Source: Chitinophaga agri (lineage in GTDB: Bacteria; Bacteroidota; Bacteroidia; Chitinophagales; Chitinophagaceae). Taken from it: a DNA stretch of 64,000 nt. Below, piece by piece: positions 44,951 to 50,364 of the stretch. Below the pieces are notes generated by a model. That model saw only the letters and a program-made list of their open reading frames with translations, had not been told where the DNA came from and ran no database searches. The stretch is from positions 7,458,001 through 7,522,000 of the forward strand of contig NZ_CP048113.1 of NCBI RefSeq assembly GCF_010093065.1. The letters are read 5' to 3'. The stretch's first letter is position 1, and each line of letters opens with the position of its first letter. The translations under genes were made by a program, and so were the position numbers.

Positions 44951-45023
44951 GATTCCGTAGCTCAGTTGGTAGAGCAATACACTTTTAATGTATGGGTCCT
45001 GGGTTCGAGTCCCAGCGGGATCA
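44951..45023 (+). tRNA. tRNA-Lys (anticodon UUU), second identical copy
   Basis: All 73 nt equal the copy at 7363-7435, with the same acceptor pairs, UUU anticodon and A discriminator; the leader also shares GGGAAT just before the tRNA. It marks the left edge of an AT-rich accessory stretch. Confidence 0.97.
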
Positions 45024-45029
45024 CAAGAA

Positions 45030-45058
45030 AAGACTGCGCGAACAGCGTGGTCTTTTTT
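45030..45058 (+). terminator. Terminator after second tRNA-Lys
   Basis: AAGACTGCGC (45030-45039) pairs with GCGTGGTCTT (45045-45054) using two wobble pairs, followed by TTTT. Confidence 0.8.
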
Positions 45059-45136
45059 GTTTCAGGTGCAATGCCTGAAATTCCTTTAAGAATCCTAAAT
45101 TAATGGGTTAACTTATCGGTCAATAAACCTCTGCAA

Positions 45137-46475
45137 ATGAAAGTCAGAAGCATTACAATCCTGATTTGTATCACTTTCAAAACCTTCATTTAGATCTGAC
45201 GTATCCTGCCGGGCACCCCAAAGCTGGTCGGGCGTTAGACAAAGTTTGTATCATTGGACAGAGTGGAACTGGAAAGACGACCTTATTGAAATTAATTTCC
45301 ATTCTATCATATCGCACTTCTCAATTTGATCAGGTTGGATCGTTGGATAAAATTAAAAACATTGAGATTGAGTTTGAGTTTAGTGATGTGACAGCTACCA
45401 AATATCTCGAAGCTGATATAAGTTCTGACGACACTGTCAAATCATATTGGAGAAATTATTTGAAAGCAGGAGAGCCACTATCACCTGATGCAGTAAACAA
45501 ATTGTGGTCGGAATAAATAGCAGGATATTACCTTTATCAATCTACTTTCCCGCAGATTTGGTCTATGATCTCGAGGCTGATTCCTCGAGTGTGAATGACT
45601 ATACTAAAAAAAGGACTATCGACTTTTCTACGGAAAAAGCTGCAGATATCTGGAGCATTATTCTTAATAAAATTCAGAAATATCAGGAAGAAGAATTGAA
45701 GATCCGGCAACAAATATCGAAGGTTGCGGAGAAGAGTGACAATATTCAGGAGATACAGCGGGCAGTAAAGGAATTGGAAGAATGGCGCCAAAGTGCATTC
45801 AATCCGGTTGAAGATGTTGCCCAAAATTGTTTGAATGATGTATTACATCATTTTGGACTAAGGGTCAAAACAGCGCTTGATTTCCAAAAGAAGGAAGATA
45901 TCGGATTCCTGAAGATAGAAGATTTTGAGAACAATGAAGTTCCGAATGGTTTATTAAGCACTGGGACAAAGCAGGTAATGCTTTCAGCACTCCCCTTATA
46001 TTTACTTAAGCCGAATAAATGTCAGATTTTGTATGATGAGCCTGAGCGTTCATTGTATCCCGACTTACAGCGTTTCATTATTGATTATTATGTGAGTTTA
46101 ACTACTGATTCCCAGTTCTTCTTTTCAACTCACTCTCCCATTATAGCTTCTTCTTTTGAGCCATGGGAGATCGTCGAACTGAAATTCGATGAAAAGTGGT
46201 ATGTGTATAGGGATAAGTACTACGAAGGGGAAAACCATGTGGACAATTACTTTGTTGATCCACGGTATTTAGATTATGACCTGATCCTAAAGAAGGTTTT
46301 TGATCTGAAAGACACCAGTAGCGATCTGCGAATGGAAGCACTGGTGGAATTAAGTATGTTGAAAAATCAGTTAGACACACTGAAACAGGAAGGTAAATTA
46401 CAAACTGAAAAAGCAAAGGCAATCTTGACACGTTATAAATCGCTGGCGCAAAAGCTGGCATGGGAAACCGAATGA
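45137..46475 (+). pseudogene. Frameshifted AAA/ABC-type ATPase, PtuA-like (Septu-type defence)
   Basis: An ATG at 45137 opens MKVRSITIL in one frame; the meaning then continues in another frame from YNPDLYHFQNLHLDLTYPAG through Walker A GQSGTGKTTL to DAVNKLWSE, stopping at 45516. A third frame, reached by adding one A near 45512 (giving WSEINSRILPLSIYFPADLV), runs on to 46475 and holds a coiled-coil insertion, GLLSTGTKQVML (signature-like), Walker B ILYDEPERSLYP and the H-loop region FFSTHSP. Together these are one ATPase of about 445 residues with two frameshifts. The type resembles ATPases of Septu systems, where the partner is an HNH nuclease. Base composition is visibly AT-richer than neighbours. 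Confidence 0.75.
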
Positions 46476-46482
46476 TCCGATC

Positions 46483-46590
46483 ATGCGTAAAATTGATAAG
46501 TCCAGGTTGTTGGCCACCAGATATAAAGAATGGCTGTGGCGCAATTATAACCTCACCCAGCCCCTTTCTTCCCCATGTTTCACAAAATAA
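46483..46590 (+). pseudogene. N-terminal stub of an HNH-nuclease partner (PtuB-like)
   Basis: Eight nt after the ATPase stop an ATG opens MRKIDKSRLLATRYKEWL, which from memory matches the start of HNH-type proteins encoded beside such ATPases. After residue about 19 the frame enters the end region of the reverse-strand M23 gene and stops at 46590, so the nuclease domain is missing. The break lies near 46540. Assignment rests on 18 residues plus position and is an inference. Confidence 0.5.
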
Positions 46591-47852
46591 AACGCCCCAT
46601 TTGTCCCCATCAGCTGTATCCCGCTACCCGCAGGAATAGTCGTTTTCACAGCCGCCAGAGTATCAGGTTGATCTAACAGTGGCACTGCCGCTTTCACTGT
46701 CTGTTTCCTAAACGACGACACTGCCACGCGTTTACCCTCCACAAAGCCTTCCCGGCCATCCATCAGCGATACCTTATACCATGATGCCGTTCCTGCAAGG
46801 ATAGCTATCACACTATTGGCAGGCAGTTTCTCTACGATAATGGCCTTCGGTGAAGGAGCTGCATATAACGGAGTCGTTGTATTTACACGGGCTGTTTGTT
46901 GTAGCAGGGTAGTATCTACATACACTGGTGGAGCAGGTGTCCGTTGCCGTAGTACAAATGGCATAGGATCAATGGCTCCGTTACCAGTATAGATACCGAA
47001 GTGCAAATGAGTAGGCGTATGCCTGGCATTACCTGTATTACCCATTAATCCCAGGGTATCGCCGGTATACACACGCTGCCCTTCCTGTACAAGTTGTGCA
47101 TCAAGATGAGCGTAATATAAGCTGTAGGAAGCGTGGTCGGGGCGCATAAATATGACCTTTCCTCCCAGATTATTCTCCCGTGTACTGGTAACAATGCCGT
47201 CAGCGGCAGCCACCACAGGCGTTCTGAATTTGCCAAAGATATCTATGCCCTCATGGCTGCGTTTACCACCATCCCGGTTGTCACCCCAGAAGCTGCCAAT
47301 GGTAGGATTCGCGTTATTCGGTACCGGAAAGGCTAAGGTTGGTCCTGTACTGATAGACAGATCATAGCCGCCGCTTTTTAGCAACTCGGGTTGTAACCGT
47401 AGGATGAATTGTCCATCAGCTTCTACCACATGTTCCAGTTTCCAGGTAGTAGAATCTGCGGCTGCCAGTAGCGAGGGCGCACTCCCTGGTTTACCGGGTT
47501 GGAGTAGTTCGGCAAAGAGCCGGAACTGACCAGCCGGTTTCATATCTATCTGTATGATAATTCTTTCGCCACGTCTGGCGGAAAACAGCAGGCCGGCAGC
47601 GGCCGGTTTCTCTGCAGCAAAGTACCCGGTTTCTCTATATGGAATGGCGACAGAAAGGGGCTGACTGATCGCTTTTTGCGCAGCGGAAAACCAGCGTATG
47701 CCTAGTTCGGAGGTAGACAGACCGGCGTCTGTGATACGGCTGGCATACTGCTCATGCGCGGACTTTTCCGTAAACAGGCCCTTCCTCGAAGAGGAGCAGG
47801 CCATAGCGAGTATACTGACAGTAAGCAAGAGGCTCCGGGCTGTAGTTCGCAT
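46545..47852 (-). CDS. M23-family (LytM) metallopeptidase lipoprotein with C-terminal SH3-like repeats
   Basis: The start at 47852 gives MRTTARSLLLTVSILAMAC, a good lipoprotein signal; an ATG at 47882 is also possible. The middle holds the LytM zinc motifs HEGIDIFG and THLHFG, with GDTLGLMGNTGNARHTP between, so the peptidase is likely active on peptidoglycan cross-bridges. The C-terminal third has two SH3-like segments (YAAPSPKAIIVEKLPANSVI, LLDQPDTLAAVKTTIPAGSG). Its last bases overlap the nuclease stub. Confidence 0.9.
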   Translation of the reverse strand: MRTTARSLLLTVSILAMACSSSRKGLFTEKSAHEQYASRITDAGLSTSELGIRWFSAAQKAISQPLSVAIPYRETGYFAAEKPAAAGLLFSARRGERIIIQIDMKPAGQFRLFAELLQPGKPGSAPSLLAAADSTTWKLEHVVEADGQFILRLQPELLKSGGYDLSISTGPTLAFPVPNNANPTIGSFWGDNRDGGKRSHEGIDIFGKFRTPVVAAADGIVTSTRENNLGGKVIFMRPDHASYSLYYAHLDAQLVQEGQRVYTGDTLGLMGNTGNARHTPTHLHFGIYTGNGAIDPMPFVLRQRTPAPPVYVDTTLLQQTARVNTTTPLYAAPSPKAIIVEKLPANSVIAILAGTASWYKVSLMDGREGFVEGKRVAVSSFRKQTVKAAVPLLDQPDTLAAVKTTIPAGSGIQLMGTNGAFYFVKHGEERGWVRL

Positions 47853-47961
47853 GGGCGTATTATTTAATGTATGATCTTTCATTACCAGTGAAATAGCTGC
47901 AATTGTCGCGCCACTCATTCCGCTGGTCCTATCTTGGTAGATCATGTGAGCATCATGCGAA

Positions 47962-49746
47962 TTACTTGCCTTCCTCCCTTACAACATGGTACGACGGGGA
48001 CAGTATTTCGATATTGGCTTTTTTGAACATATCCTGGATATGCTCAAGCAGATTGCTGTATATCGCAGCTTGTTTATTTGCTTCTCTGGTATAGGCGTTG
48101 ATCTGATAGGAAATACTAAAATCATCAAGGCTGGTTTGTAATACAAAAGGTTTGGGAGACGCCTGTATATGTATTGTTTTAAGGGCCGCTTCGATCAGTA
48201 GTTCATATACCTGTTGCCACGGCTCATCATAACCGATGGTGACGGTGTAATGTACGATCAGCCCGTCTTTTTCATTTTGCGTATAGCTGGAATAATTCAC
48301 AGTTGAACTGGATAATACGGTCGAATTAGGTACTGTAATATCTTCATTTTTGATTGTTCTTATCCTCGTCACCAGCATTGATTTTTCTACCACATCACCT
48401 ACAACGTCACCAATCTTCACCCTGTCTCCAATTCTGAACGGCCGCATGTACGTAATGACAAGACCTGCAACAATATTACTGATTGCACTGGATGAGCCGA
48501 GAGAGAGCAATATGCCAAGAAACACAGAGACTCCCTGGAATGCTGGTGAACCGGAGCCCGGAAGAAAAGGGAATATCAGTACCACCATGAAAGCATATAG
48601 CGTAACTCTCAGGATATTGAATGTCGGGATGGCCCAGTCAGCATGGAAGCCCCGGAACTGTATACTGCCCCGTTTCAGTTCGTTGAACATATACTTCACG
48701 GCTCTTATCACATACCGGAATATCAGGTATATGATAATTATTTTAAACAGGTTGGGGAGGTAAGCCAATATAGCATTGGCGGCGGACTTCAGCGGCGAAA
48801 GTATCCAGTCAAGAAGGGTATGTGTCCAGGATTTGGTTTCAGGGAAGATACTGAACAAAAGGGGAAGAGATAGATACAATACCAGGATAATGACAAGGAT
48901 CTTTAACAGGAAGTTGACCCTGAGTAAAAGAAATTCGAGATGATCTGCTGTAATTATCTTCAGTTTTTTAAGCCGTAACTCTTTTATGTGTTTTTCCTTA
49001 TTGAGAGATATCATATCTGCTACCCGTCTGAATAGCTTATTCACCAGGAAGACCACAACTGTTAGCAGCATGATGATCAGTAATACCAGTCCCAGACGTT
49101 TTAACAAATTGACCAGGCTATGTTCCTGACGTTCTCCTGTGACCGTCTGTTTGATGGTTCGCAGGTACTCATCCGCCAGGGCAGCGTTGCTTTTACCAAA
49201 CCACAGGCCGTCCAGGTTACCTATACTAACAATTACATCTGTGTTATTGTAGGTGATGTCAAAATATCCTTCATTCTCAACTATCCTTAGTGAATCGGAT
49301 TCGAAAAATGGCATTTTATACAGGTTCTCTATTTTATGTGATACCGACTTCGCCCTTTCCATTGCATTAAAGGAGCCTGTCCTTGTATAAATATAAAATA
49401 ACGTATCCTGGTTAAGTATGACAGGGTATCCTGTAGTTGATTTTTTCAGTGTCTTTAGTTTCTCCAGTTGTGCAATATTTCGCAGGGAATCGCTCACCGC
49501 GATCTTCCGTAACTGGGCTTCGAGTTCCTCCGTACGTTTAACATTGCCAGCCACAGCAGAGAGCTCGCGGGTCAACTGCATTTTGACAAGGGAGTCAATT
49601 CTCCTTTGTTGTTCGTCCTTCATCAATATTGCTTCATTAATAGCAGTGCTGTTTGTGTCATGGGTAGTCGCAGGTTGTTGCGCCAGGCAGCAATGCCTGG
49701 TTACCACGGAGCATAATATCAGTAGTAATATCCTGGAATAAGCCAT
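47962..49746 (-). CDS. Large MscS-family mechanosensitive channel
   Basis: A signal peptide and coiled-coil periplasmic region (about residues 25-110) precede several membrane spans. The conserved MscS core is FLGILLSLGSSSAISNIVAG (pore helix region), YMRPFRIGDRVKIGDVVGDV and VPNSTVLSSSTVNYSS. Length 594 is that of the larger MscS/YbdG-like types. It acts as an osmotic pressure valve in the inner membrane. It is divergent from the marR-rph operon, with two palindromes in the shared 162-bp intergenic region. Confidence 0.92.
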   Translation of the reverse strand: MAYSRILLLILCSVVTRHCCLAQQPATTHDTNSTAINEAILMKDEQQRRIDSLVKMQLTRELSAVAGNVKRTEELEAQLRKIAVSDSLRNIAQLEKLKTLKKSTTGYPVILNQDTLFYIYTRTGSFNAMERAKSVSHKIENLYKMPFFESDSLRIVENEGYFDITYNNTDVIVSIGNLDGLWFGKSNAALADEYLRTIKQTVTGERQEHSLVNLLKRLGLVLLIIMLLTVVVFLVNKLFRRVADMISLNKEKHIKELRLKKLKIITADHLEFLLLRVNFLLKILVIILVLYLSLPLLFSIFPETKSWTHTLLDWILSPLKSAANAILAYLPNLFKIIIIYLIFRYVIRAVKYMFNELKRGSIQFRGFHADWAIPTFNILRVTLYAFMVVLIFPFLPGSGSPAFQGVSVFLGILLSLGSSSAISNIVAGLVITYMRPFRIGDRVKIGDVVGDVVEKSMLVTRIRTIKNEDITVPNSTVLSSSTVNYSSYTQNEKDGLIVHYTVTIGYDEPWQQVYELLIEAALKTIHIQASPKPFVLQTSLDDFSISYQINAYTREANKQAAIYSNLLEHIQDMFKKANIEILSPSYHVVREEGK

Positions 49747-49775
49747 AGTGTTATTTTAGCTAGTTAAGGATCAAT

Positions 49776-49791
49776 GTCTTAAAGATAAGAC
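49776..49791. promoter_or_regulatory. Inverted repeat, possible MarR site near mscS
   Basis: GTCTTA-N4-TAAGAC lies 30 nt upstream of the mscS start (reverse strand). Its TCTTA/TAAGA core is shared with the palindrome at 49861. Confidence 0.55.
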
Positions 49792-49860
49792 ATTCAGTAT
49801 TATTGCCTGTAAAAGAGCGCGTATGTTTTAGCCCCCGGGAAATTTATCTCGTTGTATTTG

Positions 49861-49878
49861 TAAGATAATATTATCTTA
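49861..49878. promoter_or_regulatory. Perfect 18-bp palindrome, probable MarR operator
   Basis: TAAGATAATATTATCTTA is identical to its reverse complement. It lies 30 nt before the marR ATG. Further AAGATA half-sites follow at 49884 and 49901. Autoregulation of marR-rph is the natural reading. Confidence 0.75.
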
Positions 49879-49908
49879 GTGGCTAAGATATTTACCAAAT
49901 AAGATAAG

Positions 49909-50364
49909 ATGAATAACGACGAGATCACCCGTATAAGGCGGCTGAGTCAGCAGTATGCGTACACTTCCATTCATATGCATGAGGCGATTGCCCGAAAAGC
50001 CGGTCTGCCGGGAACGGACCATAAATACCTGGGCTTTTTACTGCAAAAGGGTAGTATGACGGCGGGAGAACTGTCTGCATTCACCGGCCTGACTACAGGG
50101 GCGGTGACCGGATTAGTAGACCGTTTCGAAAAAAAGAAGCTGGTCAGAAGAGAGTTTGCTGCAGATGACAGGCGAAAAGTGATGATCGTGCCCGATACGA
50201 AGAGGATAATGGACCTCTTAGCCCCGCTGTATAAAGACTTCCGGAGTCAGTCTGAACAGCTGATCGCTTCTTTCTCGGATGAAGAAATAAAAGTCCTTGA
50301 AGCCTACTTTTCAAAGGCTATTGAGCTAATGGATAAAACGACCTCCTGGGTCAACAATGCCTAA
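49909..50364 (+). CDS. MarR-family transcriptional regulator
   Basis: The 151-residue protein shows the MarR winged helix: DHKYLGFLLQKGSMTAGELS, AFTGLTTGAVTGLVDRFEKK and the beta-wing with FAADDRRKVMIV (Asp/Arg wing signature). Long N- and C-terminal helices form the dimer. The rph gene follows after 17 nt, so they form an operon. A perfect palindrome upstream is the probable operator. Release by rifamycin or a related small molecule is inferred from the partner gene. Confidence 0.93.
   Translation: MNNDEITRIRRLSQQYAYTSIHMHEAIARKAGLPGTDHKYLGFLLQKGSMTAGELSAFTGLTTGAVTGLVDRFEKKKLVRREFAADDRRKVMIVPDTKRIMDLLAPLYKDFRSQSEQLIASFSDEEIKVLEAYFSKAIELMDKTTSWVNNA

Follow-up and report, generated by a model that had tools for sequence, protein, structure and literature searches.

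What is the disrupted ATPase gene that lies directly behind a tRNA-Lys gene in Chitinophaga agri, can it still function, and why is it found at this position? We examined it within a window of 64,000 nucleotides (contig NZ_CP048113.1, positions 7,458,001 to 7,522,000, forward strand; the genome of 7,969,925 bp is one contig), and the coordinates given below are those of this window. Our results indicate that positions 45137-46536 hold a decayed Septu type I pair, consisting of ptuA, for an ABC-type ATPase, and ptuB, for its HNH nuclease partner. We assign a probability of about 0.88 to the interpretation that this is a dead PtuA-PtuB operon at an integration hotspot next to tRNA-Lys, with a core penicillin amidase gene on one side and variable DNA on the other.

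A ptuA gene in three frames

The original prediction, made from the sequence alone, was of an ATPase-HNH pair of the PtuA-PtuB kind with two frameshifts in the ATPase gene, and both parts of this claim are borne out. When open reading frames (ORFs) are compared, ptuA is split over three frames of the forward strand. The start (MKVRSIT..., 45137..45165, with an ATG at 45137) is in a different frame from the remainder, as judged by comparison with relatives. A first large piece with the Walker A motif (GQSGTGKTTL; 45166..45516) lies in a frame open from 45127 to 45516, in which the earliest start codon is a TTG at 45166, while a second piece (45504..46475) carries the Walker B motif (ILYDEPERSLYP) and THSP. 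Hence, both Walker motifs of a Septu type I PtuA are present. The two larger pieces match the same PADLOC PtuA model, PDLC00274, piece 1 at profile positions 13-82 (E 2.3e-18) and piece 2 at positions 176-368 (E 5.8e-46); piece 2 also matches AAA_15 (E 1.3e-13). As the PtuA proteins of relatives open with MKVRSITIPDLYHF in one continuous frame, the ATG start and the Walker A piece of the window belong together.

It could be argued that the ATPase belongs to another AAA/OLD family, such as AriA of PARIS or MAD3. Models for both also match piece 2, and in NCBIfam MAD3 ranks above the retron PtuA, with both far below the cut-off. In PADLOC, however, AriA and MAD3 score far below PtuA, and the partner protein in relatives has a PtuB fold; on these two grounds this identity was rejected as highly improbable. 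PARIS itself (AriA-AriB) is not indicated, as the relatives' partner is a PtuB-like HNH protein and not a Toprim protein. Nor is a housekeeping ATPase without an HNH neighbour what the relatives show.

A ptuB stub ending at a junction

The partner gene survives as a stub of 18 codons (MRKIDKSRLLATRYKEWL; 46483..46536, forward strand), in agreement with the predicted truncation after about 18 residues. The stub is 72% identical over 18 residues to the PtuB of C. fulva (E 0.6) and shares 17 of 18 residues with an intact partner, P0134; shuffling of a single partner gave at most 7 of 18 in 1000 tries. Searches with the ATPase pieces and with the stub lead to PtuA models and PtuB partners, respectively; the prediction had proposed such searches with the repaired ATPase and the stub. 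The distance from the ptuA stop to the partner start is 7 nt, as in the C. fulva locus; the close spacing that had been predicted is real, the value of 8 nt is not. Past the 18 codons the ptuB frame stays open in sequence unrelated to the gene until a stop codon at 46588-46590. The right edge of the broken locus is formed by an M23 peptidase gene outside the system (46545..47945, reverse strand), whose 3' end abuts the stub and whose stop codon comes eight bases after the stub homology ends. ptuB was cut by a junction and not by an indel. The HNH partner is represented in the window by this stub and in relatives by a full protein of the PtuB fold; the catalytic H and N residues are present in the relatives' partners, and the stub ends before reaching them. 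With the PtuA frame broken twice and PtuB lost after 18 residues, the system in this window cannot work as read, and neither gene gives a working product.

Is the decay genuine?

Several observations weigh against our interpretation. The frame breaks of ptuA are known from one assembly. A 99% identical protein from a contig of 1,570 bp (P0001) is continuous across the second break. It also begins at the same internal TTG as piece 1, although this shared start points the other way as well, since the first break may be common to P0001 and the window. In piece 1 the share of third-position differences is lower (0.49-0.51), which relaxed selection could explain, as could a variable region. No integrase adjoins the pair in the window, and the sequence behind the stub contains no exact copy of the tRNA end. 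Finally, a literature search combining Chitinophaga, defense systems and Septu found no phage test of this branch.

It is also possible that the ptuA breaks are errors of sequencing or assembly and that only ptuB has truly been lost. Besides the continuity of P0001, the codon-position differences in piece 2 fit this idea, as they do not indicate long neutral drift or relaxed selection; if the gene is dead, its death would probably have been recent. However, no other clearly split gene was seen in the 64 kb when the ORF layout was judged by eye, the ptuB truncation is a junction, the start of P0001 looks as if the first break were common, and further copies in the genus are broken. Four of the 15 copies that we retained in Chitinophaga (see below) are broken, namely those of the window, G045, G052 and G036, the last with a 359-residue ptuA product and ptuB remnants in several frames. 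That the ptuA breaks are mere errors of sequencing or assembly is unlikely, though the chance is far from negligible, and the predicted decay is supported by the three-frame ptuA and the 18-codon ptuB. Around the broken pair of G045 (L041), the 14 kb retrieved contain no tRNA gene.

The genome of C. agri has two other intact Septu pairs, and loss of the window copy would, therefore, cost little. One (L171, C1:5791708-5792580) lies directly behind a tRNA-Met (CAT) gene on the strand of the tRNA, a lineage similarly placed in G052 and G068. The other (L153, C1:3983573-3984250) encodes a PtuA of 453 residues and a PtuB of about 258 and has no tRNA in the fetched flanks.

Intact relatives and an unusual PtuB branch

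A protein search returned 893 proteins at E<=0.001, of which the best 120 were listed; P0003 is a PtuA 87% identical to that of the window, and its longest contig equals in length that of the partner P0134 (18,467 bp). Among 79 Chitinophaga genomes, 21 matched at E<=1e-3, and we kept 15 loci in 14 genomes, each at E<=1e-19. Matches worse than 1e-6 in G002, G007, G011, G017, G028, G053 and G066 were dropped, as were extra weak matches in G015 and G052. The expectation that intact relatives exist was correct. Intact pairs of the window's own branch (branch 1) are present in five other genomes (G054, G029, G065, G018, which is C. fulva, and G062), and those of a second branch in G063, G068, G075, G054 (a second copy), G015 and G056.

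The intact partner from C. fulva, a protein of 218 residues annotated only as hypothetical, has no Pfam match. Its matches to the PADLOC PtuB models are weak (best 1e-5), with a retron model, HNH_I-A, at 4.2e-8. A sequence search of the PDB gave nothing useful; the fold search succeeded. The predicted structure (pLDDT 95.8) has as its top solved fold matches the PtuB proteins of retron Ec78 and of E. coli Septu, and the branch-1 partner is, on this structural model, a protein of the PtuB fold. Identity to the PtuB of E. coli Septu type I (8eea; Septu EcB88) is about 15%. In an alignment of 40 of the 65 partners, H88, N103 and N112 are invariant. A C[AT]Y-x-E motif occurs in 64 of 65 homologues, and in none of these 64 is x a cysteine. 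Cysteines of the CxxC type bind zinc in HNH proteins. The branch-1 PtuB thus lacks the second CxxC cysteine, in which it differs from E. coli Septu type I, and CxxC is seen in several of the other Septu partners of Chitinophaga. The PtuA model PDLC00274 is common to the window and branch 2, whereas the PtuB of branch 2 (second copy of G054) matches PDLC00347 at 8e-71 and the branch of the stub matches PtuB models weakly. The suggestion of a distinct subtype is, therefore, only partly supported, by the weak model matches and the missing cysteine. The window copy itself is an ordinary dead Septu; its interest is that it points to a poorly covered Bacteroidota PtuB branch in which this cysteine is absent and H, N and N are retained.

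In the intact relatives, PtuA would form a complex with PtuB. By analogy with related systems, this complex would be activated on phage infection, cut nucleic acid and abort the infection. For the E. coli relatives, published accounts name tRNA-Tyr or nicked DNA as targets: cleavage of tRNA-Tyr by an E. coli Septu (PMC13096335) and depletion of tRNA-Tyr by the PtuAB of retron-Eco7. Homology suggests that the intact pairs in Chitinophaga would act somewhat likewise on nucleic acid. Unlike the PtuA-PtuB effectors of Retron-Eco7 (Ec78), the window pair has no reverse transcriptase among its neighbours tested by Pfam, Rfam and the relatives' flanks not having been scanned for retron parts. The nearest genes are those for the amidase, the M23 peptidase and MscS, and a type I-A retron was rejected.

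Placement behind tRNA genes

The locus is anchored by a tRNA-Lys (TTT) gene (44951..45024, forward strand; ARAGORN), one of six identical copies in the genome. As predicted, the pair follows directly: a leader (45025..45136, forward strand) of 112 nt separates the tRNA from the ptuA ATG. This arrangement recurs in the genus, where 14 of the 15 kept loci follow a tRNA gene on the same strand at a distance of 98-186 nt. The distance is 112-156 nt for all six branch-1 loci, which follow tRNA-Lys, and 98-186 nt for all eight branch-2 loci, which follow tRNA-Asn. The scanner scored no terminator behind the window tRNA; inverted repeats are visible in relatives. That Septu is found time and again at the 3' end of a tRNA gene within one genus is the curious and unexpected part of our results.

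One explanation would be a functional link between the tRNA and the pair. Several Chitinophaga Septu lineages would each be wired to one tRNA gene (Lys, Asn or Met) on its strand, which they sense or cut or with which they are co-expressed by read-through, and the window would hold a dead Lys-linked copy. In addition to the 14 loci behind tRNA-Lys or tRNA-Asn, a second, wider search for the PtuA family in the genus (34 places, reduced to 30 loci, not every ATPase of which was shown to have a PtuB) found tRNA genes at 7 loci. Five of these are on the strand of the tRNA, behind tRNA-Lys in G057 and G075 (a PtuA fragment in the latter) and behind tRNA-Met in G000 (the genome of the window), G052 and G068. 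In total, 19 Septu loci are on the tRNA's strand and 2 are inverted, whereas the remaining cargo of the amidase Lys site is on the same strand in 27 cases and on the opposite one in 26, although related loci in these strand and placement counts are not independent. Well-supported branches in a tree of 27 PtuA proteins require at least two changes for the Lys linkage, with G062 grouping with an unlinked relative. The tRNA-Tyr cleavage reported for an E. coli Septu would also be in keeping with such a tie. However, flanks free of tRNA genes were found at 23 of the 30 loci from the wider search and at all of 31 distinct loci outside the genus (8, 7 and 16 new ones, 3 of the last 19 being repeats; flanks of about 1.5 kb, some cut by contig ends). 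The window tRNA has five identical counterparts elsewhere in the genome, and unrelated cargo occupies the same slot. Moreover, two ATPase-HNH pairs are inverted: in G045 (L149) ptuB ends 85 nt away from the tRNA-Arg 3' end, and in G052 (L155) its distance to the tRNA-Asp 3' end is 174 nt. These inverted pairs lower the odds of a functional tie, which we consider improbable, and favour an integration hotspot. As E. coli relatives cut tRNA, the intact pairs would allow a test of whether the neighbouring tRNA predicts the target.

A variable integration site

The placement is explained most simply by the Lys site being a hotspot at which varying DNA integrates. All but one of the 79 genomes of the genus have the penicillin amidase. 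We compared 64 amidase sites (60 of 74, 3 being at contig ends and 11 not fetched, together with 4 that have the pair); tRNA-Lys adjoins the amidase gene at 58, no tRNA was seen at 6, and the DNA behind the tRNA mostly differs. Of the 108 genes in first or second place at 54 of these sites, five have phage-integrase domains and two are resolvases. Defence genes in the cargo comprise a Septu pair, TIR-NLR, a type I methyltransferase, SduA and HEC-06. In C. fulva and G065 the unit is found in different settings; the shared homology starts 30 bp before tRNA-Lys and stops 16 bp short of the ptuB end.

Direct repeats were sought at 16 loci. The second copy of G054 (L043, branch 2) has an exact 17-bp repeat, with one copy 3 nt behind tRNA-Asn and the other 86 nt past ptuB, and G075 has an 11-bp repeat in terminator-like sequence, neither length being reached in 300 shuffles; a 10-bp repeat in G056 was matched in 16 of 300. 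Neither the window nor the surroundings of the five intact branch-1 pairs yielded a tRNA-end repeat of more than 8 bp. In G063 (L039), two perfect 75-bp copies of tRNA-Asn, about 6.5 kb apart, bracket a branch-2 Septu and resemble the ends of an integrated element. The window pair would, then, have arrived by tRNA-directed integration. A hotspot alone leaves the strand bias unexplained; integration polarity could account for it.

The surroundings of the pair fit the original prediction in part. The GC content of the locus (0.37-0.40) is indeed below that of the adjacent 1.5-2 kb on either side (0.48-0.53), but the drop is not unique, as positions 48000-50000 are also low (0.41-0.45). The term defence island was too strong: the neighbours tested, with Pfam only, are a penicillin amidase, the M23 peptidase, an MscS channel and an aminotransferase, none of them a defence gene, although in other species defence cargo does occur at this hotspot. 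Genes for TIR-NLR, type I methyltransferase, tyrosine integrases and a serine recombinase are found there at the amidase tRNA-Lys site (L071, L101, L081, L117 and L123), and in G057 an unrelated Septu pair of 555 and 284 residues (L110/L146) lies at this same site, about 160 nt behind the tRNA.
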